The notes beneath the pieces were generated by a model, which worked only from the letters and a program-made list of their open reading frames with translations, made no database searches and had not been told where the DNA came from. DNA of 32,080 nt from an uncultured Oscillospiraceae bacterium (GTDB taxonomy: Bacteria; Bacillota; Clostridia; Oscillospirales; Oscillospiraceae). Both the position numbers and the translations under genes were made by a program. The stretch lies in the NCBI GenBank assembly GCA_947624395.1, contig CANQKA010000017.1:1-32080 (forward strand), written 5' to 3'. This document shows, one piece after another, positions 4,131-14,031 of this stretch; position 1 is the first letter of the stretch, and every line of letters starts with the position of its first letter.

Positions 4131-4189
4131 TCTCTCCCCCAGTCAGCGCCAAAGGCGCTGACAGCCCCCTCGTCAGAGGGGGCCTTTTT
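4131..4189 (+). terminator. Palindromic repeat arm, copy 1, acting as murC terminator
   Basis: Begins 3 bases after the murC stop. Two hairpins: AGTCAGCGCC/GGCGCTGAC, then CCCCCTC-GTCA-GAGGGGG followed by TTTTT (4185-4189). The second is a good intrinsic terminator. It belongs to a dispersed family with the outline TCTCTCCCCCAGTC...GAGGGGGCC found at several loci here. Confidence 0.8.
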
Positions 4190-4210
4190 CTATATGTGGG
4201 CAGTGGTCTG

Positions 4211-4264
4211 TCTCTCCCCCAGTCAGCGCCAAAGGCGCTGACTGCCCCCTCGTCAGAGGGGGCC
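4211..4264 (+). repeat. Palindromic repeat arm, copy 2
   Basis: Nearly identical to copy 1 (one difference in the region between hairpins: ACTGCC for ACAGCC), same orientation, 80 bp downstream. Followed by a GC-rich GCGCTGCGGCGC palindrome rather than a T-tract. Confidence 0.8.
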
Positions 4265-4286
4265 GCGCTGCGGCGCGAGGGGGCAA

Positions 4287-4337
4287 TCCCCCAGTCACCG
4301 CCTGACGGCGGCGACAGCCCCCTTTGACAAGGGGGCC
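4287..4337 (+). repeat. Palindromic repeat arm, copy 3 (diverged)
   Basis: Retains TCCCCCAGTC, a changed first hairpin (CCGCC/GGCGG) and CCCCCTT-TGAC-AAGGGGG in the second. The compensated changes in both hairpins suggest that stem pairing, not the sequence, is maintained. Confidence 0.7.
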
Positions 4338-4379
4338 TTCGATATTGTGCGCGGCTGCGCCGCGATTTTAGATCCTTGT

Positions 4380-4402
4380 CCCCTCGGAAGAGGGGGCCTT
4401 TT
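4380..4402 (+). repeat. Palindromic repeat arm, copy 4 (partial, terminator-like)
   Basis: Only the second hairpin remains (CCCCTC-GGAA-GAGGGG), followed by TTTTT. It is the last unit of the tandem cluster and insulates the downstream LytTR-like box from murC transcription. Confidence 0.6.
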
Positions 4403-4425: not shown

Positions 4426-4457
4426 TGCAATTCACGTCGTGATTTCTGCATTTCAGG
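4426..4457 (+). promoter_or_regulatory. LytTR-type regulator box upstream of the GG-leader peptide
   Basis: Direct repeats TGCAATTCACG (4426-4436) and TGCATTTCAGG (4447-4457), exactly 21 bp apart start to start, ending 9 bp before the -35. Paired ~9-bp repeats at a two-turn period just upstream of a weak promoter are the layout of ComE/PlnC/AgrA-type sites, and CATTTCAG resembles the ComE half-site. An 11-bp quasi-palindrome TCACGTCGTGA (4432-4442) overlaps. The 35 bp 4426-4460 recur exactly at 4813-4847. The regulator itself is not in the window. Confidence 0.65.
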
Positions 4458-4466
4458 ACAAAAATA

Positions 4467-4496
4467 TTGACATTTGGCAGGAAAAATTGCTATGTT
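4467..4496 (+). promoter_or_regulatory. Activator-type promoter of the GG-leader peptide
   Basis: TTGACA (4467-4472), 18-bp spacer, TATGTT (4491-4496). The long spacer and weak -10 suggest need for an activator at the adjacent box. Confidence 0.65.
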
Positions 4497-4561
4497 GCCA
4501 CCAGAAACAGCGACAAGTTGAGCTGTATCAAAAACCAAAATTCATAAGGGAGGATAATACC

Positions 4562-4753
4562 ATGGAAAACACGAAGAACAATGAGCAGCTGGCGGAAGAG
4601 GCCCTGAAGAACGTGACGGGCGGCGACGGCAAGCTGGCCAAGGGCTGGATCTGCGACAACTGCGGCGCAGAGGTGAAGGCCGCCAAGGCCAAGAACGGCA
4701 AAGCCTACTGCATCCCCTGCTACAACAAGCTCTTTCCGGAGACAAACGCGTGA
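4562..4753 (+). CDS. Double-glycine-leader peptide with zinc-ribbon-like core
   Basis: 63 aa. Residues 1-21 fit a double-glycine export leader: Gly20-Gly21 at -2/-1, Val18 at -4, Leu15 at -7 and Leu10 at -12 in LAEEALKNVTGG. C39-peptidase ABC exporters recognise such leaders on bacteriocins and peptide pheromones. The predicted 42-aa mature part is Lys-rich and holds two CxxC pairs (Cys31/Cys34, Cys50/Cys53) separated by 15 residues, like a one-metal zinc ribbon (WICDNCGAEV...YCIPCYNKLF). The start is set by GGGAGG about 9 bases upstream. It has its own promoter and LytTR-like box, almost identical to those of the giant gene downstream. No exporter, immunity or modification gene is nearby. 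It could be a bacteriocin-like or signalling peptide, or a RiPP precursor with a zinc-binding core; a purely cytoplasmic zinc-ribbon protein is less likely given the leader. Confidence 0.75.
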   Translation: MENTKNNEQLAEEALKNVTGGDGKLAKGWICDNCGAEVKAAKAKNGKAYCIPCYNKLFPETNA

Positions 4754-4784
4754 GCTGAACCGGCAAAATCTCTAAAATCGAACC

Positions 4785-4813
4785 AAGCCGCCCGGGTTTT
4801 TACCGGGCGGCTT
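4785..4813 (+). terminator. Hairpin after the GG-leader peptide gene
   Basis: AAGCCGCCCGG / CCGGGCGGCTT, an 11-bp perfect stem with a 7-nt T-rich loop. No T-tract follows; its last base is the first base of the second LytTR-like box. It may be a weak terminator or a barrier between the two units. Confidence 0.55.
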
Positions 4814-4844
4814 GCAATTCACGTCGTGATTTCTGCATTTCAGG
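4813..4844 (+). promoter_or_regulatory. LytTR-type regulator box upstream of the 3030-aa protein
   Basis: Same pair TGCAATTCACG (4813-4823) and TGCATTTCAGG (4834-4844) with the same 21-bp period, and the same 9-bp distance to the -35, as at 4426-4457. The two loci are identical over 35 bp and nearly so into the -35, which indicates control by the same regulator and probably origin by duplication. Confidence 0.65.
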
Positions 4845-4853
4845 ACAGAATTA

Positions 4854-4883
4854 TTGACTTTGGGCGGGGCGATTTGCTATGTT
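4854..4883 (+). promoter_or_regulatory. Activator-type promoter of the 3030-aa protein
   Basis: TTGACT (4854-4859), 18-bp spacer, TATGTT (4878-4883). Spacing and -10 are the same as in the GG-leader peptide promoter. Confidence 0.65.
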
Positions 4884-4938: not shown

Positions 4939-7900
4939 ATGCAGATGGCAAAACGGGTCATAGCTGTGTTTCTGGCAGCGGTGCTCGCCTTTGGCAGTCT
5001 GGCGACGGCGGCGTTCGCGGCGGACGAGCCGGAAGTAACGGCGGAACCGGAGGCCACGGCTGAACCGGAAGTAACGGTCGAACCGGATGCCACGGTAGAG
5101 CCGGAGGCCACGGCTGAACCGGAAGTAACGGTCGAACCGGAGGCCACGGCTGAACCGGAGGTCACGGTCGAACCGGAAGTAACGGTCGAACCGGAGGTCA
5201 CGGAAGAACCCGAGGTCACGGAAGAACCCGAGGTCACGGAAGAACCCGAGGTCACGGCCGAACCGGAGGTCACGGCGGAGGCTGAGACGGCCGCCGTGAC
5301 CGTCGCGACCGTGGCATACTACGACCCCAACACACAGTCGGCCCAGCAGGCGCGCAACGTCACGCTTGTCACGTCGGATGTCCAGGAGTGGAAAAAGGAC
5401 GTGCACTTGAGCGGCTGGTACGTGGTCGGAACCAGAACCAGCGACGGCAGTCCGGTGCACAGCACGGCAAGCCTTGACCAGGTCACCGTCACGGGCCATG
5501 TGGACCTGATCCTGCCCAAGGGGGCGCGCCTGACGGTCGCCAACGGCATCCACATCAGCCAATACGGCAGTCTGACCATCTGGGGCGATCAGAGCGACTA
5601 TAGCCAGGACGGAGCGCTGATCGTCCAGAGCGGCGGCCTGAACGTGAACTCCGGCGCCAGTCTGACCATCAACGGCGGCAATATCACGGCCACCGGCGGC
5701 GTGAACACGTGGGGCCGCAAGAGCGCTCTGACCATCAACGCCGGCTCGGTGACGGCCACCGGCGGAGAGGAAGGCGCGGGCATCGGTGGCGGCGGAATGG
5801 CCACGGTGACCATCAACGGCGGCACGGTGACGGCCCAGGGCGGCGCCAGCGGCGCGGGCATCGGCGGCAGCCGGGATGCGGACGACGTGAATGTTATCAT
5901 CAACGGCGGCACCATCACGGCCAACGGCGGCGCCTACGGCGCGGGCATCGGCGGCGGCGACAGCGACGCCCTCTTTATGACGGTGACCATCAACGGCGGC
6001 AATGTCACGGCCAACGGCGGCAGCGCCGGCGCGGGCATTGGCAGCGGGTTGGGCTATTCCCGCTGCACCGTGAACATCACGGGCGGTACCGTGACGGCCA
6101 CAGGCGGCCCGAGAGCCGCGGGCGTCGGCTCAGGAAGTTTGTCCACGTCCACGGTGACCATCGACGGCGGTGTGGTCAACGCCACAGGCGGCTCGGGAGC
6201 CGCGGGCGTCGGCAGCCGGTATGAGACCGACGGCGCGGATGTCATCATCAACGGCGGCACCGTGACGGCCACAGGCGATGGCGGCGTGGGCGTCGGCGGC
6301 GCACAAGCCAATCTGACCATCAACGGCGGGTCGGTGAAAGGCGGCGTCAGTCCCCAACCCGTGAACGGAAACGGCGAGCCGGTCTATCTGCTGCAGGTCG
6401 CGAACCCCAGCGGCGAGACTGTCACCGTGGACGGAACGGCGTGGAACGTCAACAACCACGCGGCCGCGGGCGGCAGCGACACAAATCTTTATATGTATCT
6501 GCACGGCGTCAACGGCTCGGCCGGCGTGACCGTGGGGAGCAAGCCGGTGGAGAAATTCTGCCTGAACAAGGACACGAACCAGTTTGAGGACATCGGCCCG
6601 CAGTACTATGACCCGCTGACGAAGACGGCGTCATACTACGACCCGGCCGAGAAGACGAAGAAGACGGTGGAGAACGTCACGGCCGTGACGGAGGATGTCA
6701 CGGAATGGACCAGCGGCTGGTACGCGGCGGACGGCAAGGTGAGCCTGGGGCGGGTCAACGTCAACGGCGACGTGAACCTGATACTGCCCAAGGGTATGAG
6801 CCTGCGTTCTGACGGCGGCATTGGCGTCGGCGAGGGCAACAGCCTGACCATCTGGGGCACCGAGGAGGACTGTCGCAAGGACGGCTCGCTGACGGCCAAC
6901 GGCGGCAACCAGGCCGCGGGCATCGGCGGCAGCGGCGGCATAGTGACCATCAACGGCGGCGTGGTGACGGCCCGGGGCGGCTCGGAAGGAGCAGCCATCG
7001 GCACCGGGTCTGGCAGCGCCAATATCACGGTGAACATCACCGGCGGCGCCATAACGGCCATCGGCGGTTGGCGCGGCGCGGGCATCGGCGGCGGTGCGTA
7101 CTGGTGCGGCGCCACGATCAATATCAGCGGCGGCGCGATCAACGCCACCGGCGGCGAACAGGCCGCGGGCATCGGCTCCGGCGACTGGTATGGCAACGCC
7201 ACGGTGACCATCAGCGGCGGCGCGATCTACGCCGTCAGCGGCATGGAGGAAGCGGGCATCGGCGCCGGGTATGCGTCCTCGGCCACGGTGATCGTCACCG
7301 GCGGCTCGGTAAAGGGCGCCTGCAATGTCCGGCCCACGGACGCCGAGGGACACGCGGCCTATCTGCTGCAGGTGGAGAACCCCAGCGGCGGGACCGTCAC
7401 CGTGAATGGCAAGGCATGGAATGGCACGAACAACACGGCCGCAGACGGCGACGCCAACCTTTACATGTATCTGCCCGACACGGACACCACCGCGGACGTG
7501 TCCGTGGGCGGCGGCGCAGCCCAGCGGTACCGGCTGAACAAGGACGCGGGCCAGTTCGAGCACGTGGGCCCCGTGCCCGCCGATCCGGCGACCAGGTCGG
7601 TGCAGTATTACGACCCGAATGAGGGGTCGATGCAGCAGGCCGGGAACGTCCACCCCGTGAAGAGCGGCGTGACCACATGGGAAAACGGCTGGTATGTGGC
7701 CGACGGCGCGGTGACGCTGGAGCACGTGGACGTTTACAGCAACGTGAACCTTATCCTGCCTAAGAATACGAGCCTGACGGTCAGCCGGGGCATCCAAATC
7801 AGGGACGGCGGCAGACTGACCGTCTGGGGCAGCGAGAGCGACTGTCACGATGACGGGACCCTGACCGTTACCGGCGCGAACGAGAACTGCGCGGGTATCG

Positions 7901-10900
7901 GCGGCGGCAACGGCGACAGCAACGTCCGGGTGACCATCAACGGCGGACATGTGACGGCCACCGCCAGTCAACACGGCGCGGGCATCGGCTCCGGCGACTG
8001 GTATGGCGGCGCCACGGTGAACATCAGCGGCGGCGCGATCTACGCCGTCAGCGGCATGGAGGAAGCGGGCATCGGCGCCGGGTATCACGCCTCCAACACC
8101 ACGGTGACCATCACCGGCGGCGACGTGACGGCCACCGGCGGCGCACTGGGCGCGGGCATCGGCACCGGTTGTTACGGCCCCGGCGGCACGGTGAACATCA
8201 GCGGCGGCACCATAAACGCCACCGGCGGCGATTCCGGCGCGGGCATCGGCACCGGCTCGTCGTTCAAAAAATCCAGTTTGCGCATCAGCGGCGGCGTGAT
8301 AACGGCCCAGGGCGGCAGCTGGAGCGCGGGCATCGGCGCCGGCAACAGCGACGGCTACGGCGGAAACGGCATGACCGTGACCATCACCGGCGGCACGATA
8401 ACGGCCAACGGCGGCAACATGCCGGGCCAGGGCGGGACCGTCCCGGGCATCGGCGGCTCGACCAAGTTCCAGTACGATCCTTCGCTCCTGTCCGTCACCA
8501 TCGACGGCGGCTCGGTGAAATCCGGCGAGGGCATCTTCCCCCAGCCCAAGAACAGCGCCGGAGGGGCGCTCTATGCCCTGCAGGTGGCCAACCCCAACGG
8601 CGGGACCGTCACCGTGAACGACAAGGCATGGAACACAAATAATCACGCGGCGCTGGGCAACGACACGAATCTTTATATGTACCTGCCCGAGACGGAGACG
8701 ACGGTGTTCGTGACCGTCAACGGCGGGGCTATCGAGCGGTACGTGCTGAATAAGGAGGCTGGCCGGTTTGAAAAGGCCGCGGGCAGTGTCTATTACGACC
8801 CGGCCAGCGGCGTCCAGCAGCGGGAGACGGTAGAGTCGGTCCAGAGCGTCCTGCGCGGGGACAATAATACGGGCGGCTGGTACGTGGCCCAGGGCGCGAC
8901 GAACATAAGCAGCATCGGGGTCCAGGGCAGCGTGAACCTGATACTGGCCCACGGCGCGACGGTGTCCGTCAGCGATGGCATCCGGGTCCAGGAGGGCGGC
9001 AGTCTGACCATCTGGGGCCAGGACAAGGACCCGGCCAAGAGCGGGACGCTGACGGTCCAGAGCGGCATGTGCATTGCGTTCGGCGCCCACAGCGGAGATA
9101 TCGTTATCAACGGCGGCGTGATCAACGCCAACGGCGGCGGCGCGGCCATCGGCGGCAACACCGACTGCAGCGGCACGGTGACCATCAACGGCGGCGTGGT
9201 CAACGCCAACGGCAACGGCAGCACGTCCATCGGCGCAGGGGGCGCCGCGGCCAAGATTGCGGTCGTGATCAACGGCGGCGTGGTGACGGCCTTCGGCGAC
9301 GAGGTGAGCGCGGCCCTGGGCCGCGGGCCAAACGGCGGCGACGCCACGGTGACCATCACAGGCGGGTCGGTGAAGGCCATAGGGTACGTCAGCCCCGAGC
9401 CGGTGGGCGCAAACGGAGAAGAGGCCTATCTGCTGCGCATCCCCAACCCCAACGGCGAAATCGTCACCGTGAACGGGAAGGTCTGGGACGTGAACAACCA
9501 CGCCGCCGCGGGTACCGGCGACACGGACCTGTATCTCTACCTGTCCGCCCCGGACGTGTACGTGACGGTGGGGACCGGCCAGGCCGTGCTGTACGTGCGC
9601 AACGATAGGACGCGCCAGTACGAGGCCTCCACGGCCGTGCGGTACTATGACCCGACCGCCAAACAGGACCAGCGGCGCGAGACGGCCACGGCGATAGCGG
9701 CGAACGCGACAAGCTGGACGGGCGGCTGGTACATGGCCGGCGGCATCATGACTTTTGACGCGGTCACGGTCAGCGGCGACGTGAATCTGGTCCTGATCGA
9801 CGGCGCGGCCCTGACGGTGAACGGCGGCGTCAGCGTCGGGGACAACAGCAGCCTGACCATCTGGGGCCAGAACGCGGACTATGCCAAGGACGGCGCTCTC
9901 ACCGTCACCACCGGCGGCATCCTCTGCGGCAGCAATGCCGCGGTGACCATCAACGGCGGCACGGTGAAGTCCACCAACAGTGAATATGGCTCCGGCATCG
10001 GCACCCGCAACAGTGTCACCGGCGTTCGCCTGACCGTCAACGCCGGCACGGTGACGGCCGCCGGCGCCGATGACGGCTCCGGCATCGGCGCCGGCAATGA
10101 AAAGGCCGACGCCGTGGTGACCATCAACGGCGGCGTGATAGACGCCACCGGCGGCATGTCCGCCCCGGGCATTGGCGCCGGACCCTACTCCACCGCCACG
10201 GTGACCATCGACGGCGGCGCCATCAAGGCCCAGGGCGGCGGATACGCCGCGGGCGTGGGCTCCGGATTTCGGGGCAGCGCCACGGTGACCATCAACAACG
10301 GCACCATCGACGCCGCCGGCGGTCTGCTCGCCTCGTTCGTCGCGGACCTGGGCGGCCCCGGCGTGGGCGGCGGCACCTACGCCGACGGGACCACGGTGAC
10401 CATCACCGGCGGCACGATAAACGCCAACGGCGCCCAGGGCGCCGCGGGCATCGGCGCCGGCGCCTGGACACACAACACCGCGGTGACCATCCACGGCGGC
10501 GTCATCAACGCCCACGGCGGCGATGGCGGCGCGGGCATCGGCAACGGATGGGCCGCCGATTCCGCCACGGTGACCATCGACGGCGGCACGGTGACAGCCT
10601 TCCAGGGCTGGGCCGCCTCGGACATCGGCTCCGGCAGCAACGCCAGCGCCACGGTGACCATCGACGGCGGCTCGGTGAAGGCCGCCAACGGAAGCGTCAA
10701 CCCCCAGCCCGTGGATAAAAACGGCGACCCGGCCTATCTGGTGACGCTGGAAAACTCCGGCGGCATGGCCGTGACCATCGGCGGGAAGAGCTGGCAGCCC
10801 AGAAACCACGCGGCGCTGGACGACAATACGCTGTACGCTTACGTGTCCAAGGCGCTGGCGGATGAGGCCGGACTGGTCCGGGTCTCGTCCAACGGCGCGG

Positions 10901-13900
10901 AGGAGCTGTACGTCATCCAGAGCGACAGGATCGCAAAGCTGACCGGCATCTCGCCCAGCGACGGCGTTTGGGACTGGCCCGAGGATATGAGCGGCGACGG
11001 GCCTGTGACGGCCGCCTTGACCCTGCCCCAAAGCGGCGGCGAGGCCGTGGTGCTGACGGCGAAAGCGGTCATCACCGGCCGGACGGCGGCCACATGCACG
11101 GCGGAGGGCAGCAAAACTTATACGGCCACGATCACGATAAACGGCATGGAGTTTACCAACAGCAAGACCGTGCCGGTGGCCCCGCTGGGCCACGCGTGGA
11201 GCGCGTCGGTCCAGTGGATGGCGGACTGGAAGCAGGCGACGGTGACGTTCATCTGCGGCAACGACCACTCCCACACGGAAAGCGTGACGGTGGACGCCAG
11301 CGTCCAGGTCGTGAAGGAGCCCACGTGCACCATGGCCGGCGCTCGGAAATACCAGGCGGACGCCTCGCAAAAGGCGGCCGAGCTGGGCTGCGCCAACGGG
11401 ATATTCACCGCCACCACGGCCATTGACGCGCTGGGCCACGACTGGGACGTGGAGGGCGACGACATCGGCCTTATGCCCGGTGTGCAGGGCGACTTCACGA
11501 CCCTGACCATCACATGCAAAAACGACCACAGCCACACCCGCACGGTGTACACCAGCGCGGAGAAGATCGCCGAGACGGCCGCCGCATGCACGGTCGAGGG
11601 CAGCGAGACATACCGCATGAGCTATGAAGTGGACGGGCAGAAGCACGTGCTGGCCGATACGGTGACGTACGCGCTGCCCACGGTCCCCCACGACTGGGGC
11701 AAGTGGGAGCTGGTCAGCAGCGGCGCGGACGGCCGGATATACGAGCGGGAGTGCTCCATGTGCCACGAGCGTGAGCAGTCCAGCCACGAGCACATATACA
11801 TGCTGCCGGATGAGGCGGAATGGACCGTGGTGAACGACCGGGTGGTGAGCGTCGCGCTGAAGGCGGAATGCCTGGACTGCGACTGGTCCGAGACGCTGAC
11901 CTACTCGGGCGAGCAGATCCAGGCCCGTCCCGTGACGGAAGAGGTCACGTGCACCACGGGCGCTTGGACGGCCTGGACGGTGAACGTGGAACTGGGCGAG
12001 CAGTCGGGGACCTATACGAAGCAGACGTTCGTGCCGGCAAAGGGCCACGCGTGGCTGGTGGACGAGAGCAAGACCGTGTGGTCCGCGGACCACGCCACGG
12101 CGACATTCACGCTCCGGTGCGACACCTGCGGCGAGCAGACCACGTGTCAGGCCGAGAGCGTGGTGCTGGGGTCCACGGCCCCCACATGCGAGCAGAGCGG
12201 CGAGACCGTCTACAGCGCAAGCGTGGAATACGACGGCGTGACCGCGACGGCCACCGAGAGCGTGCAGACCCCGGCGCTGGGCCATGAGTGGGACGTGGAA
12301 GGCGACGAGCTGGGGCTGCGGCCCGGTGTGGATGGCAGCTTCACAACGCTGACCATCTTCTGCCTGAACGACAACGCCCATACCCAGACGGTGTATGCCG
12401 AGCTGATGCAGGTGAAAACTGAGCCGGCCACGTGCACAAAGAGCGGCGTGACGAGCTATCGGATGGGGTATGAATTCGACGAACAGGTCTATCTGGCCGG
12501 CGAGGAAGAGGACTATGAGATCCCCGCGCTGGGGCATCGGTACACCCAGGACCACGTGTGCGCCACCTGCGGCGCAAAAGAGCCCGTGCAGCAGAACGTG
12601 ACCTATACGTGGGAGCTGCCGGAGAGCGACGATACGGACGGGGTGAAGTGGATGACCCTGGCCATGGGCGCGACGCCGTACGTGACGGTGACAGCCGTCC
12701 GCACGGGCAGCGACGGGAGCCGACTGGAGCAGCCGCTGGTGGTGACGGACCCGGAGGTCCAGCGCACGGAGAAGTGCGACGCGCCGGGGACCACCACGTA
12801 CACGGCCCAGGCGACCATCGGCGGCAAGAGCCAGCGCTATTCCATCACGCTGGAGGACGTGCCGCCCGCGGGGCACCAGTGGAGCAGCGAGCCGACGGTG
12901 AGCTGGTCGGACGACATGCGGACGGTCACGTTTACCCTGACGTGTGCCAGGGACGCGACCCACACCGAGGCCGTCACGGCCCATACGACGGCGACGACGC
13001 TGACCGCGCCTACCTGCGAGACGGCCGGCGAGGCGCGCTATACGGCGACGGCGCAGATGACGGACGGCAAGACGGTGACGGCGGAAACGACGGCTCCGGC
13101 GGCGGTGCTGGGCCACGCCTGGTGCTTCGGCGCCAACGATCCGTACCCGCCCAGGCTGGAGCGCGTCAACGGCGTGCTCACGGCGACGCTCACCTGCCGG
13201 AACGATGCAAGCCACACCTGGACCACCACGGACCTTCAGCAGACATCCGCGGGGCAGGTGAAGGCGGCCAACTGCGAGACGGGCGTGGGCGAGCTTGTCC
13301 GCATCAGCGTGACAGTGGACGGCAAGACCCATGTGCTGGGCGAGGAGGTCATCGATACCACGCCCGCCAGCGGCCATCAGTGGGGCAAGTGGACGACTCT
13401 GAGCGAGACCAGCAGTAAGATGGTCCGTGAGCGGACGTGCAGCGTGTGCGGCCAGGCGGAGCGGATAGATATCACTGCCGCGAGCGCCGCACCCATGGTG
13501 ACGGTGGCGAACACAGCCGACGGCATTCAGCTGACCTGGACGGAGGTCACCAGCGCCGACGCTTACCGGGTGTACTACCGGGAGCATGGCGGAAGCTGGA
13601 AGGTCATAGGCCACACCACCAAGCTGGCATATACCTGGAAGCACGGTACGGACGGCAAGAAGTACGAGTTCACCGTCCGGGGCTGCGCCATAAGCGGCAA
13701 GACAAAAACCGTGATGCCCGGCAAGTACAACACCAGCGAGACCATCCAGTTCGTGAAGGCCCCCGCTGTGACGGTCAAGGCCGTGAAGGACGGTATCCAG
13801 GTGAGCTGGACAAAGGTGGCCGGGGCGGATACCTATCGGGTGTACTACAAAACCGCCGGCGGCGCATGGCATGCCATCGGGCACAACAAGAACCTGAGCT

Positions 13901-14031
13901 ATATCTGGAAGCACGGCAAGGCCGGCGTCAGCTATCAGTTCACGGTCCGGCCCTGCACCGTCAAGGGCGCGACAAAGACCCTGTTCGGCGCCGGGTATAA
14001 CACCAGCAAGAGCGTGAAATTCCCCAAGTAA
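4939..14031 (+). CDS. Giant secreted repeat protein (beta-repeat modules, GHxW-type repeats, two Fn3-like domains)
   Basis: 3030 aa. The signal peptide is residues 1-27 (AFA/AD cleavage), then about fourteen EPEVT-type hexads (about 32-116) forming a stalk. Five modules follow, starting with YYDP at about 127, 566, 890, 1285 and 1569. Each has a W-Y segment, a VNLILPKG..LTV part, SLTIWG, many GG-x-[VI]-x-A-x-GG...GAGIG turns, and a closing GGSVK...YLLQV...NNHAA...LYMYL unit. The glycine-rich turns look like a beta-helix and resemble Cthe_2159-type carbohydrate-binding repeats. Residues about 2015-2840 are repeats with LGHxW and paired Cys/His; about 2853-3030 are two Fn3-like domains. No LPXTG, SLH or transmembrane anchor is seen, so attachment is unexplained. 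AAGGAGG (4923-4929) sets the start. It shares its upstream control region with the GG-leader peptide and its overall plan with the BspA-like protein opposite. An adhesin or glycan-binding role is inference. Confidence 0.9.
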   Translation: MQMAKRVIAVFLAAVLAFGSLATAAFAADEPEVTAEPEATAEPEVTVEPDATVEPEATAEPEVTVEPEATAEPEVTVEPEVTVEPEVTEEPEVTEEPEVTEEPEVTAEPEVTAEAETAAVTVATVAYYDPNTQSAQQARNVTLVTSDVQEWKKDVHLSGWYVVGTRTSDGSPVHSTASLDQVTVTGHVDLILPKGARLTVANGIHISQYGSLTIWGDQSDYSQDGALIVQSGGLNVNSGASLTINGGNITATGGVNTWGRKSALTINAGSVTATGGEEGAGIGGGGMATVTINGGTVTAQGGASGAGIGGSRDADDVNVIINGGTITANGGAYGAGIGGGDSDALFMTVTINGGNVTANGGSAGAGIGSGLGYSRCTVNITGGTVTATGGPRAAGVGSGSLSTSTVTIDGGVVNATGGSGAAGVGSRYETDGADVIINGGTVTATGDGGVGVGGAQANLTINGGSVKGGVSPQPVNGNGEPVYLLQVANPSGETVTVDGTAWNVNNHAAAGGSDTNLYMYLHGVNGSAGVTVGSKPVEKFCLNKDTNQFEDIGPQYYDPLTKTASYYDPAEKTKKTVENVTAVTEDVTEWTSGWYAADGKVSLGRVNVNGDVNLILPKGMSLRSDGGIGVGEGNSLTIWGTEEDCRKDGSLTANGGNQAAGIGGSGGIVTINGGVVTARGGSEGAAIGTGSGSANITVNITGGAITAIGGWRGAGIGGGAYWCGATINISGGAINATGGEQAAGIGSGDWYGNATVTISGGAIYAVSGMEEAGIGAGYASSATVIVTGGSVKGACNVRPTDAEGHAAYLLQVENPSGGTVTVNGKAWNGTNNTAADGDANLYMYLPDTDTTADVSVGGGAAQRYRLNKDAGQFEHVGPVPADPATRSVQYYDPNEGSMQQAGNVHPVKSGVTTWENGWYVADGAVTLEHVDVYSNVNLILPKNTSLTVSRGIQIRDGGRLTVWGSESDCHDDGTLTVTGANENCAGIGGGNGDSNVRVTINGGHVTATASQHGAGIGSGDWYGGATVNISGGAIYAVSGMEEAGIGAGYHASNTTVTITGGDVTATGGALGAGIGTGCYGPGGTVNISGGTINATGGDSGAGIGTGSSFKKSSLRISGGVITAQGGSWSAGIGAGNSDGYGGNGMTVTITGGTITANGGNMPGQGGTVPGIGGSTKFQYDPSLLSVTIDGGSVKSGEGIFPQPKNSAGGALYALQVANPNGGTVTVNDKAWNTNNHAALGNDTNLYMYLPETETTVFVTVNGGAIERYVLNKEAGRFEKAAGSVYYDPASGVQQRETVESVQSVLRGDNNTGGWYVAQGATNISSIGVQGSVNLILAHGATVSVSDGIRVQEGGSLTIWGQDKDPAKSGTLTVQSGMCIAFGAHSGDIVINGGVINANGGGAAIGGNTDCSGTVTINGGVVNANGNGSTSIGAGGAAAKIAVVINGGVVTAFGDEVSAALGRGPNGGDATVTITGGSVKAIGYVSPEPVGANGEEAYLLRIPNPNGEIVTVNGKVWDVNNHAAAGTGDTDLYLYLSAPDVYVTVGTGQAVLYVRNDRTRQYEASTAVRYYDPTAKQDQRRETATAIAANATSWTGGWYMAGGIMTFDAVTVSGDVNLVLIDGAALTVNGGVSVGDNSSLTIWGQNADYAKDGALTVTTGGILCGSNAAVTINGGTVKSTNSEYGSGIGTRNSVTGVRLTVNAGTVTAAGADDGSGIGAGNEKADAVVTINGGVIDATGGMSAPGIGAGPYSTATVTIDGGAIKAQGGGYAAGVGSGFRGSATVTINNGTIDAAGGLLASFVADLGGPGVGGGTYADGTTVTITGGTINANGAQGAAGIGAGAWTHNTAVTIHGGVINAHGGDGGAGIGNGWAADSATVTIDGGTVTAFQGWAASDIGSGSNASATVTIDGGSVKAANGSVNPQPVDKNGDPAYLVTLENSGGMAVTIGGKSWQPRNHAALDDNTLYAYVSKALADEAGLVRVSSNGAEELYVIQSDRIAKLTGISPSDGVWDWPEDMSGDGPVTAALTLPQSGGEAVVLTAKAVITGRTAATCTAEGSKTYTATITINGMEFTNSKTVPVAPLGHAWSASVQWMADWKQATVTFICGNDHSHTESVTVDASVQVVKEPTCTMAGARKYQADASQKAAELGCANGIFTATTAIDALGHDWDVEGDDIGLMPGVQGDFTTLTITCKNDHSHTRTVYTSAEKIAETAAACTVEGSETYRMSYEVDGQKHVLADTVTYALPTVPHDWGKWELVSSGADGRIYERECSMCHEREQSSHEHIYMLPDEAEWTVVNDRVVSVALKAECLDCDWSETLTYSGEQIQARPVTEEVTCTTGAWTAWTVNVELGEQSGTYTKQTFVPAKGHAWLVDESKTVWSADHATATFTLRCDTCGEQTTCQAESVVLGSTAPTCEQSGETVYSASVEYDGVTATATESVQTPALGHEWDVEGDELGLRPGVDGSFTTLTIFCLNDNAHTQTVYAELMQVKTEPATCTKSGVTSYRMGYEFDEQVYLAGEEEDYEIPALGHRYTQDHVCATCGAKEPVQQNVTYTWELPESDDTDGVKWMTLAMGATPYVTVTAVRTGSDGSRLEQPLVVTDPEVQRTEKCDAPGTTTYTAQATIGGKSQRYSITLEDVPPAGHQWSSEPTVSWSDDMRTVTFTLTCARDATHTEAVTAHTTATTLTAPTCETAGEARYTATAQMTDGKTVTAETTAPAAVLGHAWCFGANDPYPPRLERVNGVLTATLTCRNDASHTWTTTDLQQTSAGQVKAANCETGVGELVRISVTVDGKTHVLGEEVIDTTPASGHQWGKWTTLSETSSKMVRERTCSVCGQAERIDITAASAAPMVTVANTADGIQLTWTEVTSADAYRVYYREHGGSWKVIGHTTKLAYTWKHGTDGKKYEFTVRGCAISGKTKTVMPGKYNTSETIQFVKAPAVTVKAVKDGIQVSWTKVAGADTYRVYYKTAGGAWHAIGHNKNLSYIWKHGKAGVSYQFTVRPCTVKGATKTLFGAGYNTSKSVKFPK
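5026..5286 (+). repeat. EPEVT-type hexad repeat array (stalk)
   Basis: About fourteen 18-bp units encoding EP[ED][VA]T[AVE], some identical at DNA level (the GAAGAACCCGAGGTCACG unit three times in a row), just after the signal peptide. It resembles a wall-spanning spacer and is probably length-variable by slippage. Confidence 0.85.

Follow-up and report, generated by a model that had tools for sequence, protein, structure and literature searches.

The 35-bp box found before two promoters of the window (the whole 32,080-nucleotide stretch of DNA that was analyzed, which is contig C17 of a 2.06-Mb genome of 131 contigs and 82.7% completeness, here G000) belongs to a family of direct-repeat boxes, and our analysis suggests, with a probability of about 0.8, that these boxes are controlled by one clade of LytTR response regulators (RRs), which we call the C21 type. 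The box family, its direct-repeat form, its fixed spacing, the content of the genes behind it and its linkage to an RR and a kinase can be read directly from the DNA. The coincidence of two promoters is in this way extended to a putative regulon with a candidate regulator, kinase, signal and exporter in uncultured gut Clostridia, where peptide signalling thereby becomes directly testable. If this reading is true, exported peptides and giant surface proteins would be placed under one switch, which bears on colonization and competition.

The sequence-only reading of this DNA had described two promoters with the same control sequence and the same geometry. Both copies of TGCAATTCACGTCGTGATTTCTGCATTTCAGGACA are present, at 4426-4460 and 4813-4847, 387 bp apart, and in both copies the -35 starts 9 bp past the second TGCATTTCAGG and is followed by an 18-bp spacer and a TATGTT -10, as had been claimed. 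Both promoters do carry the box, but it is not limited to them, and the model described below finds nine in the genome. The features of this region are the following:

4426..4460 (+), LytTR-type box, copy 1, with half-sites TGCAATTCACG at 4426-4436 and TGCATTTCAGG at 4447-4457 and a 21-bp period
4467..4496 (+), promoter of the peptide gene, read from sequence: TTGACA at 4467-4472, 18-bp spacer, TATGTT at 4491-4496
4562..4753 (+), gene of a 63-aa peptide with a double-glycine (GG) leader, start MENTKNNEQLAEEALKNVTGG
4784..4814 (+), GC-rich hairpin between the peptide gene and the second promoter, without a clear T run
4813..4847 (+), LytTR-type box, copy 2, matrix score 66.1 bits
4854..4883 (+), promoter of the giant-protein gene, read from sequence: TTGACT at 4854-4859, 18-bp spacer, TATGTT at 4878-4883
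4939..14031 (+), gene of a giant protein of 3030 aa with a signal-peptide-like start, EPEVTAEPE repeats, Beta_helix_3 repeats and an fn3-like C-terminal part

Copy 1 scores 71.1 bits on the box matrix and belongs to the 77 strong sites defined below. The two boxes sit in an 81-nt repeat whose copies share 85% identity, and a scan of the window with the 47-column matrix gave scores above 15 bits at these two boxes only and none in the reversed window. A TG precedes the -10 of the window promoters at the usual position, and because of this they could be of the extended -10 type. The frame of the peptide is also open from an earlier TTG (according to the ORF list); its leader comprises residues 1-21 and ends in VTGG, and its core, which has two CxxC pairs, shows a weak resemblance to zinc ribbons that stays below the Pfam cut-offs. 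Zinc-ribbon GG peptides that resemble it by eye occur in a boxed region of G326 (L155). The hairpin is a possible terminator of the peptide gene. Positions 4131-4400 of the window also hold GC-rich palindromic repeats with a CCCCCTCGTCAGAGGGGGC core, in two copies 80 bp apart plus diverged ones; this core occurs in 31 of the 284 loci examined, and several of these loci overlap and represent the same place.

The form of the box was analyzed across the strong sites. TTGAC stands at one fixed column in 74 of the 77, and the remaining three comprise two with one base fewer inside the box and one with TCGAC. When 71 distinct gap-free boxes were matched against themselves, the best result was a direct repeat at 21 bp (14.2 bits), followed by 6.0 bits at offset 8, and the best inverted match reached 1.5. 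The second half-site has two main spellings, TGTCGATTC and CTGCA[AT]TTC, the latter of which repeats the first half-site. Above 25 bits, the matrix gives 47 sites in 423,514 bases from loci chosen partly for their boxes, and 0 in the reversed sequence. The arrangement is the one by which we would recognize a LytTR regulon, namely two direct half-sites with a period of about 21 bp upstream of the -35. According to the sections available of the published work, PlnC sites, which adjoin the -35 on its upstream side, consist of two 9-bp repeats separated by 12 bp (PMC2714321) and SilA sites of 10-bp repeats with 11 bp between them (PMC2766830); the dimensions of both give a 21-bp period, as in the box described here. 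The earlier suggestion that the repeat layout recalls LytTR sites agrees in this respect with the sites described in those sections (PMC2714321, PMC2766830).

A 31-mer with up to three mismatches occurs twice in the 2.06-Mb genome of the window (reversed control, 0), and a stricter box pattern returns the window's two sites only. A relaxed paired-repeat pattern gives nine matches versus one in the control; seven of the nine are boxes by promoter context, and the matches at C10 and C62 are probably chance. We used the seven context-supported boxes of G000 to build a 52-column model, and the genome-wide search for the two-repeat motif that the sequence-only reading had proposed gives nine sites in G000 with this model. 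Two precede GG peptides (C17 and C29) and one, at C16, a GG peptide with a frame interrupted at a G-tract; those before large proteins stand at the giant protein of the window and at genes of C7, C8 and C11 whose products share its type of N-terminus; the further boxes precede a 657-aa secreted protein at C21 and a 373-aa protein at C1.

Of the 35 genus genomes searched with the model, 12 contained matches, 85 in all. A strong box was defined by an E-value of up to 1.6e-5, which kept 77 boxes in 9 of the 35 genomes (23 in G326, 16 in G307, 14 in G317, 9 in G000, 5 in G313, 4 in G294, 3 in G216, 2 in G310 and 1 in G309) and dropped eight weaker ones with E between 4.1e-4 and 0.042, at least two of which precede GG peptides. 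In a sample of 300 family genomes taken from a larger group, E-values below 7e-4 were found in genus members only; outside the genus the model matched in 8 of the 300 genomes with a best E of 7.5e-4, and judging by the three that were read these matches look partial. A search of 150 genomes with the 31-mer and three mismatches returned the window's own genome alone, and this search was too strict because the model found boxes in further genomes. The idea of a regulon had been tied to the motif occurring at homologous loci of related strains; relatives do have the box, ahead of genes for GG peptides and surface proteins, and the locus that recurs in several genomes is that of the kinase described below. 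A scan of GTDB species genomes with the relaxed box, which may omit genomes very near that of the window, gave 55 stretches, all 55 on MAG contigs with 'Lapin' in their names, which we take to mean rabbit; the labels are Oscillospiraceae for 49, Clostridia for 5 and Lachnospiraceae for 1, the last of which is possibly mis-binned. A phage origin of the box was also considered and rejected, the single viral-contig match scoring 2.0 bits on the matrix and being probably chance. Among the matches listed in a search of the openly licensed literature, no title describes either the box or the regulon in Oscillospiraceae.

Sorted by regular expressions and a simple ORF rule, as uncurated classes, the first genes behind the 77 strong boxes comprise 36 GG peptides, 28 large proteins and 8 other small proteins, with none in 5 cases; two of the eight other small ones also bear a GG motif. 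The large products include giant surface proteins, a radical-SAM protein, a GH3-like enzyme, an OPT transporter, a patatin-like protein and a family of 620-670 aa, whose tested member has SLH, SH3 and NlpC/P60 matches. Several boxes head arrays of small genes, that of G326:C9 consisting of nine in a row, eight of them with the GG motif. As far as sequence goes, the proposal that a peptide with an export leader and a giant secreted protein belong to one regulon is supported by further loci where the box precedes GG peptides and surface proteins. The boxed radical-SAM protein is present in G307 (L145:413-1801) and G326:C87 (L151) and is possibly a modifier of the Cys-rich peptides. In other bins, boxes precede a probable prepilin-like protein and a probable GspE/PilB-like ATPase (L221, L229).

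The search for LytTR genes, which had also been suggested, found three in G000; across the genus there are 90 matches in 31 of the 35 genomes. A tree of 78 of these 90, which leaves out the 12 that scored under 100 bits in our own profile, contains one clade of 12 RRs with a support of 100/99, and this is the C21 type. Eight of the nine strong-box genomes have a box at a distance of 0.8-11 kb from a LytTR gene that belongs to this clade, and the odds of this linkage come to 6.8e-8 when four lineages are taken as independent and genome lengths are rounded. The RR has REC and LytTR domains. The candidate in G000 is the open frame at contig C21:6909-7598; in locus L008:5880-6602 its frame is interrupted within the receiver domain when compared with G313, and this break is either an assembly error or true. 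G309 (73% complete) has a strong box and no LytTR gene was found in it, and G316 and G312 have an RR of the clade and no box in the 14 kb examined. The 500 nt before eight of the RR genes hold no box, and seven kinase loci (of the sister clade, G316 and G312) show no convincing differently spelled repeat of 20-23 bp.

The genes around this RR follow a common order. In G000, G307, G326, G216, G294, G313 and G317 the box is followed by peptides and/or surface proteins, then by a kinase and then by the convergent RR gene; in G319 and G323, diverged boxes (39.5 and 30.8 bits) stand before a run that ends in the kinase; and in G310 a boxed run of two peptides converges on the RR, with no kinase there. 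The kinase is thus the last gene of a boxed run on the same strand and adjoins the RR in 9 of the 12 clade genomes, the exceptions being G310, G316 and G312; the runs, which are putative operons, extend up to 11 kb. The kinase itself would stand behind the box in these genomes, which would give positive feedback and a self-amplifying circuit. A GHKL ATPase domain (HATPase_c_5) is present in the kinase, and simple hydropathy gives an N-terminal span, a predicted extracellular part of about 170 residues and some 3-6 further spans.

We propose that the 35-bp box would be the binding site for a dimer of one LytTR RR (in G000, that of C21:6909-7598), in which each subunit would read one half-site, with its [AT]TTC[AG] core, 21 bp from the other, and that the dimer would aid RNA polymerase at the TTGAC -35, which lies downstream at a constant spacing. 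The RR would pair with the neighboring GHKL sensor kinase, whose gene ends the boxed run of GG peptides and/or surface proteins, and the products of the regulon would be GG-leader peptides and large surface proteins. The GG peptides would be exported and cut after the GG by a C39/NHLP exporter where one is present, and the likeliest inducer would be one GG peptide, with the Cys-rich one before the kinase as the best candidate. The operons, the binding of the RR, phosphorylation, activation and dependence on cell density are what we infer from this arrangement.

We give about even odds to a GG peptide acting as the signal. At the loci examined, 6 of the 12 clade genomes (G000, G313, G317, G307, G326 and G319) have a Cys-rich GG peptide immediately ahead of the kinase. 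A related one holds the same place in G318, which belongs to the sister clade and shows no box in the 16 kb examined. We regard this kinase-adjacent peptide as the best signal candidate, its secretion being predicted from the leader. It could also well be, at odds somewhat below even, that the kinase senses a nutrient, host or envelope signal and that the GG peptides are effectors, either bacteriocin-like or acting on the host. The predicted extracellular part of the kinase matches no Pfam sensor domain, the kinase of G216 and G294 is preceded by a non-GG protein of 61 aa, and the search for C39 found none in 4 of the 9 strong-box genomes, all of which would fit such a signal; the recurrence of related Cys-rich GG peptides immediately ahead of the kinase argues for the peptide.

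A C39 exporter, for which the sequence-only reading had proposed a search, was found once in G000, as an NHLP-type ABC1/ABC2 pair. Compared with the NCBIfam cut-offs, ABC1 (with C39) scores 952 vs 853.3 bits and ABC2 724.1 vs 709.4, and the HlyD-like partner of the exporter is a partial match only (37.1 vs 156.2 bits). G319 has one NHLP exporter over the family cut-off and a second one (812 vs 853 bits) that adjoins the regulator. The exporter loci scanned have no box of their own, and the box beside the exporter of G000 belongs to a downstream surface protein. C39 is found in 14 of the 35 genus genomes and 5 of the 9 strong-box genomes; it was not found in G313 (93% complete), G317, G310 and G309, nor in G323 with its diverged box. 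The GG peptides of G000 are presumably substrates of the NHLP exporter, and the two of them that were tested match no NCBIfam family. AgrBD was considered as the controlling system and rejected, since no AgrB was found in G000; in the genus there are seven AgrB matches in 5 of the 35 genomes, each about 2 kb from LytTR genes of other clades.

Some further proteins occur near the regulator and the exporter. In G326, a dCache-HAMP-SpoIIE protein and an LCM-STAS protein are encoded next to the regulator gene (L123:11432-14839, L010:3174-6490), LCM-STAS-like proteins are boxed in other bins (by eye), and upstream of the C39 exporter of G000 there are a SpoIIE-like protein (by eye) and a STAS (anti-sigma-antagonist) match just under the cut-off. 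These SpoIIE/STAS proteins are possibly a linked partner switch.

A less probable reading, to which we give only a small chance, is that the box is the LytTR site of another regulator, of the C4 or C14 type, and that its linkage to the C21 type is incidental. G000 does have three LytTR genes, and the presence of an RR in a genome goes with the presence of boxes for each of these types (Fisher p of 1.6e-4 for C21, 1.7e-4 for C14 and 1.2e-3 for C4), so that presence and absence alone cannot single out the C21 type from the C14 type. Other LytTR genes also share contigs with strong boxes, a C14-type gene at about 9 kb (G307:C10), a C4-type gene at about 6 kb (G317:C55) and further ones at about 22 kb (G216:C18) and 57 kb (G307:C1). 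However, when each type is counted among the strong-box genomes that have its gene, the distance from the gene to a strong box is at most 11 kb in 8 of 8 for C21, compared with 1 of 6 for C4 and 1 of 7 for C14, and in 9 of 12 clade genomes the C21-type kinase is the last gene of a boxed run, the kinases of the other types having been examined in part of the genomes. It is very improbable that the repeated promoters are copies spread by gene duplication without a common regulator. Three further boxes of G000 do stand before genes that are almost identical to that of the giant protein in upstream region and N-terminus, but elsewhere the box and the -35 are kept while the remaining promoter and the downstream genes differ, and the 71 distinct gap-free boxes keep the same columns.

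The LytTR reading, with control by the C21-type RR preferred, is well supported by the layout, the regulator linkage and the gene content, and the regulon would work like a peptide-pheromone regulon of the Pln/Blp/Sil kind; two of the features by which we would recognize one, a kinase adjoining the RR behind the box and a GG peptide linked to the kinase, are found in 9 of 12 and in 6 of 12 (plus G318), respectively. As far as the available sections describe it, the pln regulon of Lactobacillus plantarum C11 has, like the present one, LytTR RRs, secreted peptides, tandem half-sites with a 21-bp period directly upstream of the -35 of several promoters, and a kinase within the regulated operon, which is a putative operon here (PMC2714321). 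It differs in its half-site, TACGTTAAT, and in its transport operon, which has a regulated promoter (PMC2714321), whereas no box was found at the exporter loci scanned here; and unlike what those sections report for pln, up to 23 strong boxes are present here on many contigs (G326) and large surface proteins are targeted. The Sil and Blp systems of streptococci, in the parts available, likewise have a LytTR RR, a box searched for genome-wide, and direct repeats (10 bp + 11 bp) or a 30-bp operator immediately before the -35 (PMC2766830, PMC8545106). The motif of S. gallolyticus is described there for 12 putative operons at the gallocin locus and two other loci (PMC2766830, PMC8545106), unlike the many scattered loci and giant surface proteins found here. 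As in NHLP/NHLM export (TIGR03796/TIGR03797; PMC2887384), G000 has an ABC1 with C39 and an ABC2 over the cut-offs, and it differs in that its two tested GG peptides fall outside the NCBIfam families. The agr system (AgrBDCA) shares a LytTR RR and a GHKL kinase with ours and differs in AgrB, which was not found in G000 and whose matches in the genus lie near LytTR genes of other clades.

Many of the GG-peptide genes contain G-tracts. By our rule, which missed at least one in-frame gene (L123:7394), 23 GG-peptide genes have a tract of 6-12 G in the leader codons, 11 of them in frame and 12 out of frame (examples are L147:1463, 1735 and 1967; L233:2589, 2821 and 3093; L142:1130 and 1543; L038:1603; and L051:1442). 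One peptide has G9 and is in frame in G307 (L147:1967) and has G10 and is out of frame in L233:2589, a Lapin-022 contig that matches G326. Of the distinct runs of at least nine G in the examined loci, 20 of 31 fall in GG-peptide genes. These tracts suggest phase variation of the GG-leader genes. We regard as rather doubtful, though worth considering, the combined reading in which a self-amplifying LytTR circuit would drive highly varied Cys-rich GG peptides and giant surface proteins, part of which would also be phase-variable, each gene separately, through slippage in the G-tracts of its leader codons; it would apply to one rabbit-gut Oscillospiraceae lineage and to a genome-wide repertoire, and if true it would combine quorum activation with phase variation of secreted peptides. 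A family of MTDEKKTL-like peptides is out of frame in all eight copies found by the rule, which could be decay.
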